Shown: piece after piece, positions 1,420 to 23,870 of the stretch
Layout: every line of letters begins with the position of its first letter
How positions within the stretch are numbered: position 1 is the first letter of the stretch
The notes under the pieces: model-generated
Database searches by the model: none
What the model was told of the DNA's origin: nothing
The model's input: only the letters and a program-made list of their open reading frames with translations
DNA from: a virus
Reading direction: 5' to 3' (one strand)
IMG/VR virus record: IMGVR_UViG_3300018038_000179
Coordinates: 1-23,870 of that record
Length of the DNA: 23,870 nucleotides
Program-made: the position numbers and the translations under genes

Positions 1420-4400
1420 CTACATCGATGCCGCAGCGGTCGCCCTGCCGCGCCCCACAAGGCTGCCAGCGAGCTGCCCTGGCCCGTAGTTCGCGGTGCC
1501 GACCGCCCCCGATGCCATGATCGGAGAGCACGAGCCGATCAGGTGGACGGTCGCACCCGCTAGCCCGCTGGCCTGCGAATCGCCCTCGACCGATTCGGCA
1601 TCGTAGATCGCGAGGCTCACGTACGCCGCAGCGCTGCCGCCCTCGCACGAGCCGGTTGCGACGATGGGCGAGAACACCTGGGCCCGGGCGAGGCTCGACC
1701 CGCGCAGCGCGGCCACGAGGCGCAGCATTGCGTAGGTGGCCACGGCTACCGCGGACCCAGGGACCTCCGGCGTCGTGACGCCCTCGCCCAGATAGACGCA
1801 CTGCGTATCGCAGTCCAGCTCTGGCGATAGACCGTCGGCCTCGCCTGTCGTTGCGGTCGAGAGCTCTGAGGCTGAGGTGCTGCTGCTGCCGCCCTCGGTC
1901 GAGCCGCTGACCACCACCAGATGCGCACCCTCGACGCCGGTGGCAGTGGAGCCGCCGGAGGCCGCGCCGGTGTCCGTGAATTCCTGCGCGGCGAGCCCGG
2001 CGAGCAGACTCGCACCCTTGAGCATAGCCGCGATCAGGAACGAGATGCTGACTCTCGCCGCCGCATAGCCGTGGCCGGTCGCGGCGGCGTGCACCCAGGC
2101 CGCAAGAAAAGCAGAGGCGGCCGAGGAGCCCAGGAGCGCGCCGGTGGCGTAGACCAGTAGGACACCGCCCCCGCCAGTGGTCTTGAAGAAGGCCTCCAGG
2201 ATCGTGATCGTATCAAGGAAGCTCTCGTGGTAAGCGCGGACCGTGCTGATAGTCTCCAGCAGGTTGAGCGCGTCCGCCAGGGAAGCGAATTGCGCGTGCG
2301 ATTTGCCGAAGATATCCGAGAGGTTGATCGTGTCGGAAAAGTTCGGTGTCTGGTTGTGAGTCAGGCTGGAAATGTCCGAGAGGGCGAATGTGTCCGACTC
2401 ATTCAAGAAATGGAGTTGCAACGTGGCGAAGACATCCGCCAGGGAGAACGTGTCCGTGGGTGCGGGCGGAAAATATCCATGCGTCGTGCTGAACGTTGGT
2501 TCCAGCAAAGAGAACTGATCGGCGACGACGCCGCGGGCAGTTGCTTTCTGGATTGTGTCCAGCAACGTGAAGGGGTCCGAGAAAGAACCCGGCGCGTGGG
2601 TGTGCGCCGGGCTGAAAGATTCCACCACAGCGAACGGATCGACCGGCAGCTTGCCAGGCTTTTTAGAAAACACATCGGCAAACACGCTGGTGAATGAATC
2701 GGACAGTGTGGGGGAAACGTGCCCGTGGTTCTTTGCAAAAACGTCCGCGAAAACGGAATAGATCCCGGTCTCGCCCGCGAAGGAGCGCGCGGTCGTTTTC
2801 GCCACTTGATCAGAGACAGAAAATTGGTCGGAGAGAGCTAGCGGAACGTGAAAGGGGGTGACCGTCGGCATGACGTAGGCGACAAGGCCTATAAAGGAGG
2901 ATGTGGGCGTGTACGTGAAACTATCGGTATGGGAGCCGGGATTGCCGGAATTGATGGTGTAGTCCATGATCCCGCAAAAATTCATGCTCTGCCCGTTGAA
3001 CGCAACATGGCCGCCGTTACCCCACATCAGACCAACCGTGGAAGCCGTCGTGGCACTGGCTACGATGAACATTTCCAGTTCGTTGGCATTGGTTGGCTGC
3101 GCGGCACTCACGCTGGCGGTGCCTACGGCGCTGCTGGAGTAATTGAAAGAGGTAACCGAATCGAACGGGTTTCCGGTAGCCGCGCCGGAAATAATCAAGA
3201 ACTGAAGCACGAAATCGACTTGGCTTCCGAAATTGAACGTGACGGAAGTTCCGGTCGTACCTGTGGGTTGCCCTGCGGTGACCCACGCGTGGTACAGGCC
3301 GCTTTCGGAGGTAGAAACTGGGCCGGCGTAAAACGTCATGTTCGTGCAGGTGGGGTAGCCGCTCTGGAACCCATTCGCGCTGTTAGCTGCGGCGAAAATG
3401 ATGAGGGTTTGACCGGGAGACATCGCGGGGATCGTGAAGCCAGATCCGCTGGCAATGCCGGAACCGCCAGACGTCCACCCCTGCACGATGGAGATGGCCC
3501 CAACCGCCGGCGCGTTCAACGAACTCGTGAACGACTCCACCATGGTGTAGGCGTCCAAAAACGTGGAGCGACTGATCGCCTTCGAAATGCTCTCAACCAG
3601 TATGAATGGATCTGAAAATGCCTTAGCGTTGATCGTCTGCGTTGCCAGGAACGATTCCGTGATGGTAAACGGATCTTTCGGCAGCTTGGCAGGATTCCTT
3701 ACGATTCCCAAATCCTGAAAGGAAAATGTTTCGGTAAAAGATTCGCCCGGCAGTACGCGATGCTGGACGAAGGTATCGGAAAAGACGCTGGTAAAGGGGT
3801 CGGAGAGACTGCTTCGCGCGGTACTCTTCGCAATGGTCTCCGTGATCGGTAGGGGGTCGGAGAAAGTTTGGTTATAGGAATCGCCGCCGAGAGAGCCTTT
3901 GAGAATGAATACTATTCCAAAATAAGGCGGCGATCCTGTAATCGCTCCGTTGATGTCTTCCATCCGGATACTGAAATTAGAAACTGCGGAGGTGGCGACT
4001 TCTGCCGCCCACCCTTGATCGGTTTGGCCAGATGGAGACCACCCTACGAACGTCTGCGAATAATAAGTCCCGCCCAAAGCGGAGGACAAGCTGCTGGCCA
4101 TGGGGGCGGAATAATCCCACCAGAGGCACGCCAAAAGGGCATCGCCGGCGTTGCAACTGATTCCGGTAACGACAGTTTGATTCGTGTTTTCCGGAAAACT
4201 GCTTGGTAGATTCCCGACTCCGGTGTATACCCCGCGTATCATGTTCGGCTGACTCACGAAACCCTGCCAGCGCGATATTGTGCCCACCAGAAAACACGAA
4301 ACGTTGTTATGCACAGTAATGGTGGTGCCCGGAGTGCCTGTGGCGAACCCCACCCACAGCTCTATCTCGCAGTTGTTGGTCGAGTTGACCCAATCCGTGA

Positions 4401-4584
4401 GGTACGTCCACGTGACGTTCGTTTGGGTGATGCTGGTAAAATCGCTGCCGGTCGACCAGCCTGTGAGAACTGCAAAGAAGACATCAGAACTGGTGAGCGT
4501 GCCGCCAATCGTAATATTCATCGACGTGGCATTGGCGTCGGTGGCGTTGTCCCCGACGTTGCCACTCTCGTAGGTGATGGCCAT
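1420..4584 (-). CDS. Large repeat-containing tail fiber-like protein
   Basis: A 1054-residue protein with GGAG seven bases before the ATG. Residues 1-230 form a beta-rich globular domain ending YFGIVFILKG. Residues 241-352 are about six units of a 19-22 residue repeat (consensus F/L-S-D-x-F-x-L/V-x-D/E-x-F/I). Residues 360-573 form a second globular beta domain ending FIGLVAYVMP, probably related to the first. Residues 582-801 carry about ten more repeat units. Residues 803-1054 are glycine/alanine/serine-rich with 'A-x-G' spacing and cysteines at 925, 929, 980 and 1019. Position and make-up suggest a surface fiber or adhesin, with the globular domains as possible carbohydrate binders. No signal peptide or enzyme motif is seen. 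Base composition is lower in G+C in its N-terminal part than in its C-terminal part, suggesting mosaic origin. Confidence 0.65.
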   Translation of the reverse strand: MAITYESGNVGDNATDANATSMNITIGGTLTSSDVFFAVLTGWSTGSDFTSITQTNVTWTYLTDWVNSTNNCEIELWVGFATGTPGTTITVHNNVSCFLVGTISRWQGFVSQPNMIRGVYTGVGNLPSSFPENTNQTVVTGISCNAGDALLACLWWDYSAPMASSLSSALGGTYYSQTFVGWSPSGQTDQGWAAEVATSAVSNFSIRMEDINGAITGSPPYFGIVFILKGSLGGDSYNQTFSDPLPITETIAKSTARSSLSDPFTSVFSDTFVQHRVLPGESFTETFSFQDLGIVRNPAKLPKDPFTITESFLATQTINAKAFSDPFILVESISKAISRSTFLDAYTMVESFTSSLNAPAVGAISIVQGWTSGGSGIASGSGFTIPAMSPGQTLIIFAAANSANGFQSGYPTCTNMTFYAGPVSTSESGLYHAWVTAGQPTGTTGTSVTFNFGSQVDFVLQFLIISGAATGNPFDSVTSFNYSSSAVGTASVSAAQPTNANELEMFIVASATTASTVGLMWGNGGHVAFNGQSMNFCGIMDYTINSGNPGSHTDSFTYTPTSSFIGLVAYVMPTVTPFHVPLALSDQFSVSDQVAKTTARSFAGETGIYSVFADVFAKNHGHVSPTLSDSFTSVFADVFSKKPGKLPVDPFAVVESFSPAHTHAPGSFSDPFTLLDTIQKATARGVVADQFSLLEPTFSTTHGYFPPAPTDTFSLADVFATLQLHFLNESDTFALSDISSLTHNQTPNFSDTINLSDIFGKSHAQFASLADALNLLETISTVRAYHESFLDTITILEAFFKTTGGGGVLLVYATGALLGSSAASAFLAAWVHAAATGHGYAAARVSISFLIAAMLKGASLLAGLAAQEFTDTGAASGGSTATGVEGAHLVVVSGSTEGGSSSTSASELSTATTGEADGLSPELDCDTQCVYLGEGVTTPEVPGSAVAVATYAMLRLVAALRGSSLARAQVFSPIVATGSCEGGSAAAYVSLAIYDAESVEGDSQASGLAGATVHLIGSCSPIMASGAVGTANYGPGQLAGSLVGRGRATAAASM
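2182..2841 (-). repeat. Fiber repeat block 2 (about 10 units)
   Basis: Codes for residues 582-801. Units include LSDQFSVSDQVAK, LSDSFTSVFADVFSK, VDPFAVVESF, FSDPFTLLDTIQK, TDTFSLADVF, SDTFALSDI, FSDTINLSDIFGK and LDTITILEAFFK. It resembles block 1 closely (compare LSDPFTSVFSDTF with LSDSFTSVFADVF), suggesting duplication of a whole domain-plus-repeat segment. Confidence 0.7.
3529..3864 (-). repeat. Fiber repeat block 1 (about 6 units)
   Basis: Codes for residues 241-352 of the fiber-like protein. Units include FSDPLPITETIAK, LSDPFTSVFSDTF, KDPFTITESF, FSDPFILVESISK and FLDAYTMVESF, spaced about 19-22 residues apart. The DNA is diverged, so the repeat is seen mainly at protein level. Confidence 0.7.
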
Positions 4585-4594
4585 TCAGTGGCTC

Positions 4595-5155
4595 CTACGT
4601 CTGATATTTATGCGTGACGGTAAGCTGATCGGTCGAAACCACGTTGACAGCGGAGAACGACTGGTACGCCATCATGTTGCCGCCCGACGATGCGTTGTCG
4701 ATGATGCACTCCTCGGTGACGGCAAACGAAGAGGTAAAGGTCCACGTCTTCACAAGCTGCGTCGTGTCGTTGGTGACGGTGGTGGTCACCTGCGAAGCGG
4801 TCGCGGCGCCGCGTGAACCACCGCCGGTGGTGATTTCGGATGCCAGGGCGGTCGCGGTCGCGGGGGTGCCTTGGGTACCGATCCCGATCGCCAGATTGAC
4901 CATGGCGTTATAGGAGCCTTGGTTCGAGATGCGGCCGTTTCCGGCGGCGTGTCCTACGTTCGTGATGGTGTTCGCGCGCACCAGCCGATCGGTCCAGTTC
5001 CCCAACAGGAACCAGCCCTTGAGATCCATCCCGAGATGGCGACGGATGTACCGGCCAAGGGCGTTCTCGGCCCACAATCGTTTGCGGCGCCCATTGGCGT
5101 CCAGGACGGCAATTTCCGTCCAGCCATTGAGCCGCATTTTAGTTTTTAACGTCAT
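4595..5155 (-). CDS. Tail structural protein with C-terminal beta domain
   Basis: A 186-residue protein starting MTLKTKMRLNGWTEI. The start at 5155 is supported by GGAGG nine bases upstream and overlaps the previous gene by 17 bases; a second ATG at 5137 has poorer support. The N-terminal 60 residues are basic and helical (NGRRKRLWAENALGRYIRRHL). The C-terminal part has the pattern LAIGIGT...ATALASEITTGG...TWTFTSSFAVTEECIIDN...MMAYQSFSAVNVVSTDQLTVT, which I know from phage structural proteins near tail fibers. It may link the fiber to the tip. The fiber gene follows ten bases later. Confidence 0.6.
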   Translation of the reverse strand: MTLKTKMRLNGWTEIAVLDANGRRKRLWAENALGRYIRRHLGMDLKGWFLLGNWTDRLVRANTITNVGHAAGNGRISNQGSYNAMVNLAIGIGTQGTPATATALASEITTGGGSRGAATASQVTTTVTNDTTQLVKTWTFTSSFAVTEECIIDNASSGGNMMAYQSFSAVNVVSTDQLTVTHKYQT

Positions 5156-5480
5156 TGATCGGTACCTCCTCGTGAAAGTTCAAGTTGTAGTGTTGGCCGA
5201 TCGCAGCAATTGCATCGTTTGCGGTGTTTTCGTCTGCTGCCTTCTTCTCGGCTTCCTTGGCCCACTGCGCGGTGAGCTCGAGGTCGTTCTGCATGACATC
5301 GGCCTGCTCCTGGTAATACTCCGGGCGCGTGTTCTCGGGTAGATGGGCGTACTGCTGCGAGTGGACGGTCTTGCCAGAGTCGTCCAGGAAATCAACCTCC
5401 GCCGCGACGTGAAGCGCGGGCTCGCCCGTAACCGGGTGGGGAAGGTACTTCTTAGTAAGTGCGCGAATAGCAGCTTTCAT
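5139..5480 (-). CDS. Small acidic helical protein, unknown
   Basis: A 113-residue protein starting MKAAIRALTKKYLPHPVTG. I do not recognise it. A beta-like first half (EPALHVAAEVDFLDDSGKTVHSQQYAHLP) is followed by a charged helix (residues about 50-90, ELTAQWAKEAEKKAADENTAND). Its position among tip and fiber genes suggests a minor structural or assembly role, for example as a chaperone for the fiber, but nothing in the sequence shows this. The stop lies inside the next gene: the two overlap by 17 bases, and the next gene's ribosome binding site (GGAGG) lies in this gene's last codons. Confidence 0.5.
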   Translation of the reverse strand: MKAAIRALTKKYLPHPVTGEPALHVAAEVDFLDDSGKTVHSQQYAHLPENTRPEYYQEQADVMQNDLELTAQWAKEAEKKAADENTANDAIAAIGQHYNLNFHEEVPINDVKN

Positions 5481-5486
5481 GAGTTT

Positions 5487-5870
5487 TTAAGTCTCCGTAA
5501 CCGTCAAGCCACCGGTGGCGAACGTGAGCTGGTCACCGGTATTGATGGTCTTTGATGCCGTGAGATTGCCGTACCACAGCATGTTTCCGAGCTGGTCGAA
5601 CAGTGCGAACGCCACGATGGTGCCCCAGGGCGCGGCAGCCTGCGGGAATGTCACGGAGGCGTTGTTGCTGATCGTCCCATTGGCTGGCGAGGCGAACGTG
5701 CCTGCGGTGCGCGCGTAGCCGCTTGATCCGTTGCTGACTTCAACCCCGCCGCCGCCAGGACCAGGCGACGAAGTATAGAGTGCAACCAGGATCTGCGTCG
5801 GTGACGTGTACGCGACGCCATTGAGGACCGCACTGAGAAAGGTGTTGTCAAGATAGTAGCTCTTTGCCAT
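5487..5870 (-). CDS. Tail tip / fiber-like beta protein B
   Basis: A 127-residue protein starting MAKSYYLDNTFLSAVLNG, with GAGGAG six bases before the ATG. It consists almost only of the beta domain shared with the upstream neighbour: ILVALYTSSP, a glycine-rich turn (GPGGGGVEVSNGSSGYAR), SVTFPQ, AFALFD and MLWYGNL, then GDQLTFATGGLTVTE. The general pattern ('LYTS.P...G.EVS..GYAR...FD...G..LWYG.L......GD......G.L.VT') is common among small phage tail proteins. It probably decorates the tip or serves as an attachment subunit. A local duplication with later divergence explains the resemblance. Confidence 0.65.
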   Translation of the reverse strand: MAKSYYLDNTFLSAVLNGVAYTSPTQILVALYTSSPGPGGGGVEVSNGSSGYARTAGTFASPANGTISNNASVTFPQAAAPWGTIVAFALFDQLGNMLWYGNLTASKTINTGDQLTFATGGLTVTET

Positions 5871-5880
5871 GAATTACTCC

Positions 5881-6549
5881 TCAGAAAGCCAGGGCATTCG
5901 GGCCGGCGACGGTGAAGCCGGCTGTCGTTCCGCGCGTGGCGTCGATGACGTTGAAATACAGATAACTGCCCAGCGTTTGATCTGGCATTGCGTTCAAGAA
6001 CAACGCGAGGCCCGTGTCGCGCGGGATTGCATTGCTGCCGGACGGCAGTGGGATGCTAGGCATGCCCTCGACGTCGGTCGCCCAGGCCATCTGGTTCATG
6101 AACGAGATCGCTGCAGGGTTGTCGATGGGAGTGATCCCCACGTACGGGCCCCAGTTGGCCGCAGCGCCCATCGCGGGGTTCGTCCAGTCGACCAGCAGCG
6201 CGCCAGCCCGGATCGTAGGCGTGCTGCCTGCCTGTCCGGTCAGGAAGCCGCTGCCGGGCAACGCGCCCCAGTAAGTCAGGTCGCCTGTCGAAGTGAGGAA
6301 GATCCCGAAGAAGAGCGCCGTTGCCCAGTTGCCGGTTGCGGTCCAGGAGATCGCGCTGGTGTTCGACGCGCACATGTTGAGGACCGGCGAAAGAGTGATT
6401 GACTGACGCGCGTAGCCGGGCGCATTCACGCCGCTCAGCTCAACTCCGACGCCATTGCCCGCAGGACTTTGGCTGAAGAGCCCGATCTGCAGCGAGCTTG
6501 CGAGCACGCTGAGGAGATTCGCGTTCTGGTAAAGGTACGCCTGGGGCAT
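5881..6549 (-). CDS. Tail tip / fiber-like beta protein A
   Basis: A 222-residue protein starting MPQAYLYQNANLLSVL; the longer frame to 6606 lies in the previous gene. Residues 20-98 share a pattern with the next gene: LQIGLFSQSPAGNGVGVELSG, NAPGYARQ, ASNTSAISW and LTYWGAL align with ILVALYTSSPGPGGGGVEVSN, SGYARTA, SNNASVTF and MLWYGNL. That shared domain is a small beta sandwich I associate with phage tail fiber or tip proteins. Residues 100-222 are an extra C-terminal part without a motif I know. Spacing of two bases from the previous stop suggests coupling. No strong ribosome binding site is seen. Confidence 0.55.
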   Translation of the reverse strand: MPQAYLYQNANLLSVLASSLQIGLFSQSPAGNGVGVELSGVNAPGYARQSITLSPVLNMCASNTSAISWTATGNWATALFFGIFLTSTGDLTYWGALPGSGFLTGQAGSTPTIRAGALLVDWTNPAMGAAANWGPYVGITPIDNPAAISFMNQMAWATDVEGMPSIPLPSGSNAIPRDTGLALFLNAMPDQTLGSYLYFNVIDATRGTTAGFTVAGPNALAF

Positions 6550-6551
6550 GG

Positions 6552-7433
6552 CTATGCGATCTTGATGAGTAAGCTGGGCGTGGTGTTCTCCGAGATGGCG
6601 AGCCACGTTCCGCTGTCATACGAGATCGTGGTGCCACGCGGCAGGGCCTGATTCAATACGAGCGCGTCCCACATGTAGCCGCACGCGCGCTGGTTGCCCG
6701 TCTGCGAACCAGTCGATCCGGTCTGGTATGCCATCACGCGCGGCTCGTAAAACTCGACGGAGCCGTCGAACCAGGTCGCGGCAACCGACGTGTAGCCTCC
6801 AGTGCCGCTCGCAAACTGCACGATTCCCCAGAGGTTCCACGCGCTCGATCCGGTGTGGCCCGCTCCGTTTAAATAGCTGAACGAGCCGCTCATTCCCGGG
6901 AGCCCGGAGGCGGAGCCAAAAAGCCCGGTGCTGCCCAGCGTGTCATTGCCGCCTGTCGAGCCATACGCGATAAGGAACGAACTAATCAGGCCCGTGAGAT
7001 TCGACGGCAGGTACGGCACGCACCAGAAGTAGCTGCTCTGCGCGGGACACGGAATCGTCGTGCGAACGAGGTAGAAATAAAAGCCGGTGGCGATCAGCTG
7101 ATAGGTGAAGCCCGCACCACAAGCGATGCTCACCGGCGACTGGTTCTGGTAGCTGGAGGTGCCGACGTTGGTCGTGGAGAGCATGCTCGCGGCCTCCAGG
7201 ATGGCGGGGGCCGTGCCTGAAGTAGCGGTGCCGTTGTAGAGCCACAGGTCGCCCTGCAAGCCCTGCGGAGTGGCCGCACTGCGTACGCGCCAGATACCGT
7301 TCGACGAACCGGACTGCACGAGCGACCAGCCAGCAGAGATTAGCGCGTTCACCAGCGCTTGATTGAAATTCGTTTGCGTGCTGCCATCGATGGTCGTATT
7401 GAGAATGGTCTGGCCGCTATAGATGACGCTCAT
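6552..7433 (-). CDS. Conserved-looking phage tail tip protein, function unknown
   Basis: A 293-residue protein starting MSVIYSGQTILNTTIDG, with GGAG eight bases before the ATG. Features are LVNALISAGWSLVQSGSSNGIWRVRSAATPQGLQ near residues 27-59, a middle strand TGFYFYLVRTTIPCP, the YFWCVPYLPSNLTG segment, and a beta-rich C-terminus. The 'ALVNALISAGW...W.v.SA.TPQGLQ' order and the 'VPYLP..L.G' motif recur, to my memory, in uncharacterised proteins of tail modules. It may form the tip or bind receptors; this is inferred from position. The gene is coupled by an ATGA overlap to the preceding one and ends two bases before the next. Confidence 0.55.
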   Translation of the reverse strand: MSVIYSGQTILNTTIDGSTQTNFNQALVNALISAGWSLVQSGSSNGIWRVRSAATPQGLQGDLWLYNGTATSGTAPAILEAASMLSTTNVGTSSYQNQSPVSIACGAGFTYQLIATGFYFYLVRTTIPCPAQSSYFWCVPYLPSNLTGLISSFLIAYGSTGGNDTLGSTGLFGSASGLPGMSGSFSYLNGAGHTGSSAWNLWGIVQFASGTGGYTSVAATWFDGSVEFYEPRVMAYQTGSTGSQTGNQRACGYMWDALVLNQALPRGTTISYDSGTWLAISENTTPSLLIKIA

Positions 7434-8278
7434 TGCAATGTCTCCATTTCAAGAACCACGCTGTAACCGGTGCCGGTGCCGGATCCTGAAGGGCCGCTCA
7501 GAATGTAGGGTCGCAGCAGGTCGCCCGGCTCAAACAAAAGGCCGGGCGCGAAGGTCTGACTCGCGAGGGTGCCGCTGATCGTCGGCTCGATGACCGGCTG
7601 CCCGCCGGCAGGGAAGATCGATGTCCAGGTTGAGACGCCTGGACGCAGCACCTGGATGTCGAGCGTGACGTTCGCGAGGGGCGGCTGCTTGACCTGGACG
7701 TAAATCGCCCTCGGCTGATTATTGCGGACCACCAGATAGTAGCCGCCAAAGTCGCGTCCCAGGGGCGGCGATGAGATCAGGCCGAAGGCCATCGTGGCGC
7801 GGTCGAACGATGGCGGCGTGATGCTCGCCAGGGCCAGCACGCACTGGAAGCCGGTCGCGAAGCCCGGGCCCACGCCGGTCGAGAGGATGTCGAGGCGCAG
7901 CAGGTTGGTGATCGCGAAGCCGCTTGTGGGCGCGAAGTCGTTCGAGGTGGTCGGCCCGGAGGCGGTCATGCTGATCGGGTTATTTAAGATCGAGTTCCAC
8001 GTGTTGCCGCCATCCTGGCTGAGCAGGATGTCGAACGTAAAAGAGCCCGCCGCCGGTGGTTGCGCCAGGAAAGCATACAGGGCCGATGGCGTCGCCGCTT
8101 GGGAGATGATGTGGCGCGTGCCCTTGTCGACGCCCGGCAGGATCGGATTGCCGAAGCCCGAGAAGAACGTGGCCTTGTTCCCGAGCGCATCGCTCGCGGC
8201 GAGCGCGCCGCCCACGTCGCCCAGCGAGGCCGCGCCGGGCCCGTTAAGCTGAATCCAGTCCGATGGTGTCGGCGTCAT
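7430..8278 (-). CDS. Structural protein with an internally duplicated beta domain
   Basis: A 282-residue protein starting MTPTPSDWIQLNG at an ATGA overlap with the hub gene; the longer upstream frame is inside the hub gene and is rejected. I do not recognise the family. Residues 79-150 and 203-282 can be aligned: each has FTFDILLSQDGGNTWNSI or VTLDIQVLRPGVSTWTSI, then a TFAP/DFAP segment, LLRLDIL or LLRPYIL, a glycine-rich turn and a closing VL strand. It therefore looks like two tandem beta sandwiches. Position between hub and fiber genes suggests a tail tip accessory or carbohydrate-contacting protein. It ends in an ATGA overlap with the next gene. Confidence 0.6.
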   Translation of the reverse strand: MTPTPSDWIQLNGPGAASLGDVGGALAASDALGNKATFFSGFGNPILPGVDKGTRHIISQAATPSALYAFLAQPPAAGSFTFDILLSQDGGNTWNSILNNPISMTASGPTTSNDFAPTSGFAITNLLRLDILSTGVGPGFATGFQCVLALASITPPSFDRATMAFGLISSPPLGRDFGGYYLVVRNNQPRAIYVQVKQPPLANVTLDIQVLRPGVSTWTSIFPAGGQPVIEPTISGTLASQTFAPGLLFEPGDLLRPYILSGPSGSGTGTGYSVVLEMETLQ

Positions 8279-22016: not shown

Positions 22017-23870
22017 TTACGCGCCCGCGCTTTTCTGCAGGCCGCGATAGTCGATAGCCGCCGCGCCGAAGTCCATGCGCGCCTTGATCTCGACGCCATC
22101 GATCTCGAAGCCCTGCTTGGTCTCGATGTACACGCCCTGCTGGCCTTCGAGGTAGCAGTACTCGATGGTGTCGATCTGCGCCGGGTCCGCGATCAGATAC
22201 CACGCGATTTCGCTCGCGGCGTCGAGACGCGGCTCGACGACCGGAACGAGACCGCGCACCCACTCCGGCACCACCGAACCCGGAGTCGCCGAAGCGAGGT
22301 TGATCGGGAAGATGAACTGGAGTGCGTAAGTTTCGAGGGCGGTCGGTACCGCGATGAACCGCGGAATCAGGTTCAGGGGAGTACCCTGCGGCCCCTTCTG
22401 AAGGCGCATATTCTGGCGACCGTTGGCGAGCGCCGCCAGCGGGCCCGGCGCCTGGGTAGTGCCGGGATTGGTCTGCGGGTTGATGTTGGTGCCGGCGCCG
22501 GTCAGCAAGTTGTTATGGGCGGCGGCGAACAGCGCGGTCTGTCCCGTATCACCCGCGTAAATCGCCTGCGGGTTGTTGATGATCAGCCCCCAAACCGTGT
22601 CGGACTCCAGGCGGGCTGCGGCCACACCCAACAACGCCGGGACGCGAGTAAACGCCTGCAAGTCATCGTTGATAATCACCTTGCGGGTGATCGCCACGAT
22701 CTCGCCGTAGGTGGCGAGCTGGTAGCTAACGTTGTTGTCGGTCAACTGCGCGCGGTGGTACTCGCCCTTTTCATTCAACTGCTGCAGGCTGGGGGCATCC
22801 GCCAGCATCACGCGATTGATCGGCTTGAAGTCGGCCGCCGTCATCTGGCGGCAGAACGGCTGGAACGTGCGGGGATACGCTTCGTATCCCTGGCGCAGGG
22901 TTTTGTTGGCGACGTTCGCCAGGATCGCGGGGAAGTCCGAGGTCGACTCCGCGCCGCCTTCGAAATACTCCACGCTGCGGGACGGAGCGCGCATGGCGGT
23001 CTCCGCGATGCGGTTCGAGTCCCAACCGCGCGTGTCCACGCCACGGAGTTGCAAGTACTCCTTGGCCATGTCCATCAGCTTGAAGTTGCGGTACTCCCGT
23101 CCCTTCTCCTCTGCGTCACGCTGCTGCTGCTCTCCGCAGCCGGCGAGATACCCTCCGGAGAGCGGATGGCGGGCGAGAAAGAACCGGCTATCGGCGCGCA
23201 GGGTGATCGCGGCCTGCATGCACTCCAGCCGCTTGACCAAGGCATCCTTCCCGCTGCCCAACGTCCCGCCGGTATTCGGGTTCGGAGTGAAGACACCGCC
23301 CTGCACGTCCTTTTTGCCGTGCTGCTCCATCGCCGCGAACAACTGTTTGCGGGCGTCGTCCACCGAGATACCATCCGCGATGAACTTGCTGACGATGGTC
23401 GGCCCATCGATGCCATAGGGTTGGACAGTGGCGCCCAGCGCAGTGATCTCGCTGACGCGCAACCGCTCGGCCTTAATCGCTTCCTCACGGACGGCGGCCA
23501 AGGCCTGATCGTTTACAACACGGGCATCCGCGCCCGTAGCCTGCGTGGTTTCCGGCATTGCAGGTTTCTCCTTTTGTGGGCTGAGTGCCCGGATTGCATC
23601 AATCACGCCCTGATCGGGCGCACCGAAGACTGCGATTTCACCGTTGGGTTCCGCGTTCAAAAAACACGTGTTGAAATCCGCTGGCACGGGGCACGGAGAA
23701 ATCTCGAACGGCTCCCAGTCGGTCGCCTTGAACATCCCGATCTCCTGGCCGTTGAGATACGGCGGCTTCCCCTCCGGCATGCCCTCGGTCTGCATGTCGG
23801 TCTTCTCCCGCTTGTAAATGAACGTTCCGAAGCTCAGGTTCTGCACGATCCCAGTGGACGCCTTGCGAAA
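22017..23870 (-). CDS. Prohead protease / scaffold / major capsid fusion protein (5' partial)
   Basis: The product builds the phage head: a serine-type prohead protease, a scaffold and the major capsid protein in one chain. The reading frame is still open at the right edge, so the protease N-terminus with its catalytic residues lies outside the window. A GTG at 23846 is the first possible start seen and is probably not the true one. Counting from that GTG, residues 1-60 look like the end of an S78-type prohead protease, with the WEPFEIS...PVPAD motif at 44-57. Residues 95-190 are charged and helical, as in a scaffold. Residues 230-609 resemble the capsid domain of protease-capsid fusions, ending in a GVYIETKQGFEIDG-type strand pair. 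An internal ATG at 23558 has a strong ribosome binding site. The family call rests on remembered motifs and is fairly secure; the exact domain borders are inferred. Confidence 0.85.
   Translation of the reverse strand, partial: FRKASTGIVQNLSFGTFIYKREKTDMQTEGMPEGKPPYLNGQEIGMFKATDWEPFEISPCPVPADFNTCFLNAEPNGEIAVFGAPDQGVIDAIRALSPQKEKPAMPETTQATGADARVVNDQALAAVREEAIKAERLRVSEITALGATVQPYGIDGPTIVSKFIADGISVDDARKQLFAAMEQHGKKDVQGGVFTPNPNTGGTLGSGKDALVKRLECMQAAITLRADSRFFLARHPLSGGYLAGCGEQQQRDAEEKGREYRNFKLMDMAKEYLQLRGVDTRGWDSNRIAETAMRAPSRSVEYFEGGAESTSDFPAILANVANKTLRQGYEAYPRTFQPFCRQMTAADFKPINRVMLADAPSLQQLNEKGEYHRAQLTDNNVSYQLATYGEIVAITRKVIINDDLQAFTRVPALLGVAAARLESDTVWGLIINNPQAIYAGDTGQTALFAAAHNNLLTGAGTNINPQTNPGTTQAPGPLAALANGRQNMRLQKGPQGTPLNLIPRFIAVPTALETYALQFIFPINLASATPGSVVPEWVRGLVPVVEPRLDAASEIAWYLIADPAQIDTIEYCYLEGQQGVYIETKQGFEIDGVEIKARMDFGAAAIDYRGLQKSAGA
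23568..23575 (-). promoter_or_regulatory. Internal ribosome binding site inside the capsid fusion gene
   Basis: On the minus strand AAAAGGAG is followed by nine bases and then an in-frame ATG at 23558-23556 (MPETTQ...). It lies exactly between the protease remnant and the scaffold/capsid part. Starting there would give a 513-residue scaffold-capsid protein. This recalls lambda, where scaffold Nu3 is translated from a start nested in the protease gene C. The site is visible in the sequence; its use is inferred. Confidence 0.55.

Follow-up and report, generated by a model that had tools for sequence, protein, structure and literature searches.

A modular fiber-like protein of an uncultivated tailed phage carries a D-x-hydrophobic repeat of about 20 residues that recurs across many viral loci

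The IMG/VR record analysed here, a stretch of 23,870 bases that we refer to as the window, encodes a probable host-attachment fiber, P0001, in which globular domains alternate with arrays of an approximately 20-residue repeat. We favor reading P0001 as a modular, tail-associated adhesin of an uncultivated tailed phage, with a beta-structured, unit-adjustable stalk spacing its heads, and we put the probability of this reading at roughly 0.6. The repeat lacks a curated name, yet three Ser-codon patterns alone were enough to locate it at no fewer than 79 viral loci. Phage adhesins probably use it widely, as a building block that escapes annotation pipelines.

Domain layout and repeat unit of P0001

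The P0001 ORF runs on the minus strand from 4584 to 1420 and encodes 1,054 aa, beginning with an ATG that has a GGAG ribosome-binding site immediately 5' of it. The initial annotation placed the gene correctly at 1420-4584; the strand, however, is minus. Its proposed order of globular domain, repeat, globular domain, repeat and tail is borne out, and a full-length orthologue shares this layout. The N-terminal domain (aa 1-235; 3880-4584, minus strand) looks all-beta and has relatives in phage proteins from two other loci, L009 and L010. It is followed by array 1 (aa 236-352; 3529-3879, minus), which has six units of about 20 aa each, and by a middle globular domain (aa 353-575; 2860-3528, minus) that is weakly similar to the N-terminal one. 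Array 2 (aa 576-801; 2182-2859, minus) has 11 units, the first six of them largely collinear with array 1. Earlier estimates of about six and about ten units thus hold for the first block and fall short for the second. The C-terminal tail (aa 802-1054; 1420-2181, minus) is enriched in Gly and Ala as had been noticed (35% G+A, versus 21% across all of P0001). It is the best-conserved region between P0001 and its orthologue (66%), and contains conserved Cys residues at 925, 929, 980 and 1019.

The repeat unit of P0001 can be written x-S-D-[PTQ]-F-[TS]-[LVI]-x-[DE]-[ST]-[FI], within a period of about 20 residues. Unit starts fall between aa 238 and 340 in array 1 and between aa 582 and 787 in array 2, with spacings that vary from 19 to 22, and the units at 708-787 place P0001 among D-x-hydrophobic phage arrays with an 18-22 aa period. 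The two arrays hold nine strict motifs, while 2,000 shuffles yielded at most two, which substantiates the regular core with Asp and aromatic residues in phase that was described initially.

Near-identical units are common to both repeat blocks, as had been claimed, and the arrays are homologous as wholes (37% identity over 112 aa, E 1e-20), with several top scores of the unit-to-unit comparison on or beside the diagonal. Because the arrays are homologous and largely collinear, the repeat half of a domain-plus-repeat cassette is duplicated. The duplication predates the split from the known orthologue, since the orthologous arrays of L002 are closer to their P0001 counterparts (56% and 55% identity) than array 1 is to array 2. 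The initial annotation had suggested duplication of the entire cassette, and here the globular half fares less well: hhalign relates the N-terminal and middle domains with a probability of 41% (E 3e-4), HMMER finds no significant match between them, and their common origin is only suggestive.

Gene neighbourhood and orthologue

The window carries a tailed-phage structural module that includes a Phage_capsid_4 capsid, a cement protein and a head-tail attachment protein. It continues with a 1,214-aa tape-measure-like ORF, a DUF2460-like gene and a 1,789-aa hub-like ORF (the tape-measure and hub labels come from size and position alone), followed by several small fiber-like genes, the P0001 gene and a glucosaminidase-type endolysin (884-1384, minus) directly downstream of it. 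Among the small fiber-like genes is a member of the Gp80 family, or podophage GP4 fiber I (5487-5870, minus). Directly upstream of P0001 lies a phrog_5417/Gp80-like small fiber-type protein (4595-5155, minus), whose relatives stand beside arrays in many phages. This context locates P0001 in a tail-fiber gene module and, together with the architecture, backs the fiber-like character first proposed; it is also what points to a place for P0001 on the virion and to a putative role in receptor binding. The fiber-type neighbours themselves, Gp80 (PF23140) and phrog_5417, are small, single-domain proteins without a repeat, unlike P0001. Elsewhere in the window, the capsid ORF (22017-23870) is at least 617 aa long and open at the window end. 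Phage_capsid_4 accounts for residues 292-613 only, leaving an N-terminal half that could represent a protease or scaffold fused to the capsid.

The orthologue, P0002 (IMG/VR contigs L002/L003), is 1,047 aa long and 59% identical to P0001, and the gene order of the module is fully syntenic between the window and L003. Conservation varies along it: genes at 4595-5155 and 5487-8278, gp80 included, are 89-97% identical and the gene at 5139-5480 is 71% identical, while capsid and tape-measure genes stand at 75-77%, the endolysin at 61% and the last gene at 34%. At 59%, below its upstream fiber-module neighbours (71-97%), P0001 is thus a fast-changing part beside an otherwise well-conserved fiber module. 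The contrast between window positions 4595-8278 (3886-7558 in L003), mostly 89-97% identical, and the capsid and tape-measure genes raises the separate possibility of a recent exchange of the adhesion module.

The association with phrog_5417-like genes, which are distant Gp80 relatives, extends to other phages. Such a gene is present at 9 of 25 loci in a first set and at 27 of 62 in a second set that repeated the neighbour test. In all 36 cases among these 87 loci it lies on the strand of the array, in many of them less than 400 bases away, and it is absent from 430 kb of comparison loci, which are mostly cellular with few viral. Several neighbours at the other array loci are phage structural genes (portal, major head, minor tail).

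The repeat class across viral and cellular sequences

We defined the class by D-x-h-x-h-x-[DE] units spaced 17-23 residues, with a minimum of three in succession. A first DNA pattern, written for three units, recovered 25 viral loci, and two further Ser-codon versions brought the total to 87. True arrays, with up to 62 motifs, are present at 79 of them; because some loci sit on the same or near-identical contigs, they represent somewhat fewer independent phages. Spacings of 20 (739 cases) and 18 (224) dominate, followed by 21 (88), 22 (74), 17 (32), 19 (21) and 23 (17), and the modal spacing is 20 or 18 in 73 of 79 loci. Steps of two are favored only as a tendency, since counts within a protein are non-independent and odd spacings occur. 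A strict rule of even spacings is ruled out by the spacings of 21 and 17, as well as by the 19-22 range in P0001.

Homology between P0001 and the arrays of other phages is seen with an HMM built from two-unit stretches of non-window arrays in the first locus set, with the duplicates L039/L045 excluded. P0001 scores 37.5 bits against this profile (E 3e-11), compared with 6.9 for the best of 200 shuffles. The link of the external arrays to the family is carried by P0001 itself, because P0002 scores just 6.2 bits, inside the shuffle range.

In cellular sequence, the same pattern produced 39 hits over 257 billion bases from bacteria and archaea, and only one of them, on an Omnitrophota MAG contig (L054), is a true array; a family search across 193 genomes of that phylum added one more weak match. 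Since the pattern favors a single codon choice, that the class is mostly viral is less certain than that it is present in many viruses. Acidobacterial pattern matches, considered as arrays, turned out to be 6-residue DGIMLS repeats. Long LSDGIM-type hexapeptide repeats make up the bacterial proteins, mostly from Acidobacteriota, at L048, L067, L068, L072, L074, L079 and L085. Two phage proteins (L027, 2450-2580; L031, 2186-2316) carry a tight 6-residue VSDTIG-like repeat, whose period equals the Asp-to-Asp spacing within the 20-residue unit.

The domains attached to arrays differ, from the N-terminal domain in the window to other domains that look sandwich-like by eye (L034, L036, L041) and repeated spacers (L040). 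A single domain family for all array heads was rejected: among those compared, only the N-terminal domain, L009 and L010 are significantly related. Heads carried by a copy-number-variable beta stalk are best read as exchangeable. A short Arg-rich C-terminal motif of about 10 residues (R-x-[ITV]-x-V...R) recurs in the array proteins of L024, L030, L041, L043 and L047, and is possibly a shared module, absent from P0001.

Searches for known families

The initial annotation knew of no named family for the unit, and we likewise found no curated one: P0001 has no family match in Pfam, NCBIfam or PDB sequences, Pfam returned nothing convincing for eight whole array proteins and 47 array segments, and our literature search found no description of a D-x-hydrophobic repeat of about 20 residues. 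The class is nevertheless common among uncultivated phages, and some related arrays already belong to a PHROG cluster that has no annotation, phrog_12240 (PHROGs v4, unknown function). Part of its 387-position profile covers this type of repeat, and of 47 array segments from other phages 25 match it; it has no match to the window or the L002 record at E 10, and none to array 2 at E 0.01. Several profile matches were set aside as effects of composition or period: midnolin in the PDB with array 2 alone (E 0.5), and designed helical repeats (E 0.001) and the Hap autotransporter (E 0.005) with the 47-row profile.

Whole-protein tblastn against INPHARED phages recovered no relatives, a failure that we attribute to fast divergence of the family. 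Pattern scans built from P0001 alone, or run on genome contigs from the pair with its orthologue, were unsuccessful for the same presumed reason. An artificial repeat consensus gave zero matches as a query, probably owing to low-complexity masking.

Fold of the arrays and alternative explanations

In our preferred reading, the two globular, all-beta-looking domains of P0001 would be heads or spacers, which the two arrays separate and extend. Each unit of about 20 residues would form one long beta-strand plus a turn, and consecutive units would therefore stack into an elongated, rigid stalk, for which we propose a beta-solenoid or related beta-fiber. The pattern of residues is consistent with strands. 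Counting from the first Asp in 265 external units of 20 residues, even positions hold D, hydrophobic residues or R, and odd ones mostly Ser, Thr or Ala; outside the motif positions, hydrophobics occupy 41% of even versus 14% of odd offsets. P0001 has the same bias outside its motif (32/75 even versus 28/135 odd, p 0.001). Given units 4-11 of array 2 and a 47-row alignment, the best AF2 model is all-beta and solenoid-like, each unit contributing roughly one long strand (pLDDT 65.7, pTM 0.57), and the remaining four models have pLDDT 41-60. Over-prediction of beta-solenoids is a documented weakness of AF2 on repeats, with unrealistic ones produced for perfect repeats (PMC11795689). The arrays modelled here are divergent and an alignment was supplied, and the warning still applies, so that the beta-solenoid suggested by the initial annotation, while compatible with a model of moderate confidence, is unproven.

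Structural comparison adds little specificity. Foldseek finds no significant match of the array model in the PDB (best E 2), and in BFVD one high-probability but non-significant match, A0A6J5QLN7, which comes from an uncultured Caudovirales phage and is uncharacterised. With VIA-align, run on families from the Foldseek shortlist, the top ranks are 7muq_AM (Z 13.6, rmsd 2.8 over 155), 6x62_AX (Z 13.2) and 3jx8 (Z 13.2), with several beta-helix enzymes below; for repeats, Z values of this size may reflect only a common arrangement. The repeats of curli CsgA and other beta-solenoids are likewise about 20 residues long. The CsgA fibril (8enq) resembles the AF2 array model (pLDDT 66) weakly (rmsd 8.7, Z 8.2) and shares no sequence match, P0001 has no curlin-repeat Pfam match, and we treat the likeness as analogy only.

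Trimeric phage and viral fiber shafts are repetitive beta stalks with heads, their length set by repeat number, and P0001 probably belongs with them by function, although its unit is none of the named shaft repeats compared. The arrays might, then, form an intertwined trimeric shaft of the triple beta-helix or triple beta-spiral kind rather than a single-chain solenoid, and would still be a fiber stalk. Many phage fibers are trimers, and hydrophobic and small polar residues alternate from end to end of the 20-residue unit, with no conserved Gly or Pro turn, as intertwined strands predict. We nonetheless consider such a shaft rather unlikely: the monomer AF2 model from 47 rows is a compact stack, albeit at moderate confidence, and the arrays have no sequence match to the triple-beta fibers or to any other solved fiber shaft in the PDB. 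P0001 also lacks runs of three or more left-handed beta-helix hexapeptides ([LIV][GAED]xx[STAV]x) and runs of five or more collagen-like G-X-Y triplets.

A poorer prospect still is that the arrays serve as flexible linkers, largely disordered or elastic, that do no more than space globular modules. The unit is rich in Ser, Thr and Asp and of low complexity in many relatives, and AF2 on the N-terminal domain plus array 1 with six rows reached a pLDDT of only 32, a model that we set aside. A linker of this sort sits badly with Asp and hydrophobic residues kept in phase over hundreds of residues in many phages, and with the even/odd alternation beyond the motif. Where the alignment was deeper, AF2 returned continuous strands at moderate confidence. 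The calcium-dependent stalk that the initial annotation had also floated is very improbable in the form of an RTX-like beta-roll. The two in-phase acidic residues per unit would suit such a roll, as would the DSGxGxD units with matching Asp spacing in the L010 relative, but P0001 has neither the GGxGxD motif nor conserved glycines in its unit, and no RTX match in Pfam. The L010 protein (5791-7443) itself has a relative of the N-terminal domain followed by ADSGLGAD-type units with an Asp spacing of 6, across two ORFs; these units are possibly a Gly-rich variant of the repeat.

The unit-adjustable adhesin stalk thus remains our reading of P0001. Its extension to the class is more tentative, and we rate it slightly short of even odds: an undescribed, widespread phage stalk repeat, beta-solenoid-like, with units mostly of 18, 20 or 22 residues whose steps of two would preserve the in/out alternation of the strand, serving uncultivated phages as a length-adjustable, head-exchangeable adhesin spacer and almost absent from the scanned cellular genomes.

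Whole-unit length change

The initial annotation held that the segment can change length and proposed comparing repeat number in related phages. P0001 and P0002 have equal numbers of units, so this pair offers no example; another pair with the same repeat class does. The loci L024 and L039 are 99.9% identical in both flanks of the junction, 6.8 kb and 0.9 kb long, and their array proteins are exactly one 20-residue unit apart, besides one substitution and a contig edge. This is direct evidence of whole-unit gain or loss in the repeat class, outside the P0001 lineage. By the same route, arrays would change length through in-frame 60-bp events and alter how far the heads reach, with possible consequences for adsorption; the effect of length, like the rigidity of the stalk, is suggested by context. 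Whole-unit change would be a simple means of altering the reach of a receptor-binding head while leaving the head itself untouched. In practice, viral metagenomes could be screened for candidate fiber genes with a profile of the repeat. Array genes also occur in tandem, at 5342-7486 and 7510-10743 of L024, and the longest array protein found is a 2,737-aa ORF at about 18-25 kb of G007, the contig behind L023.
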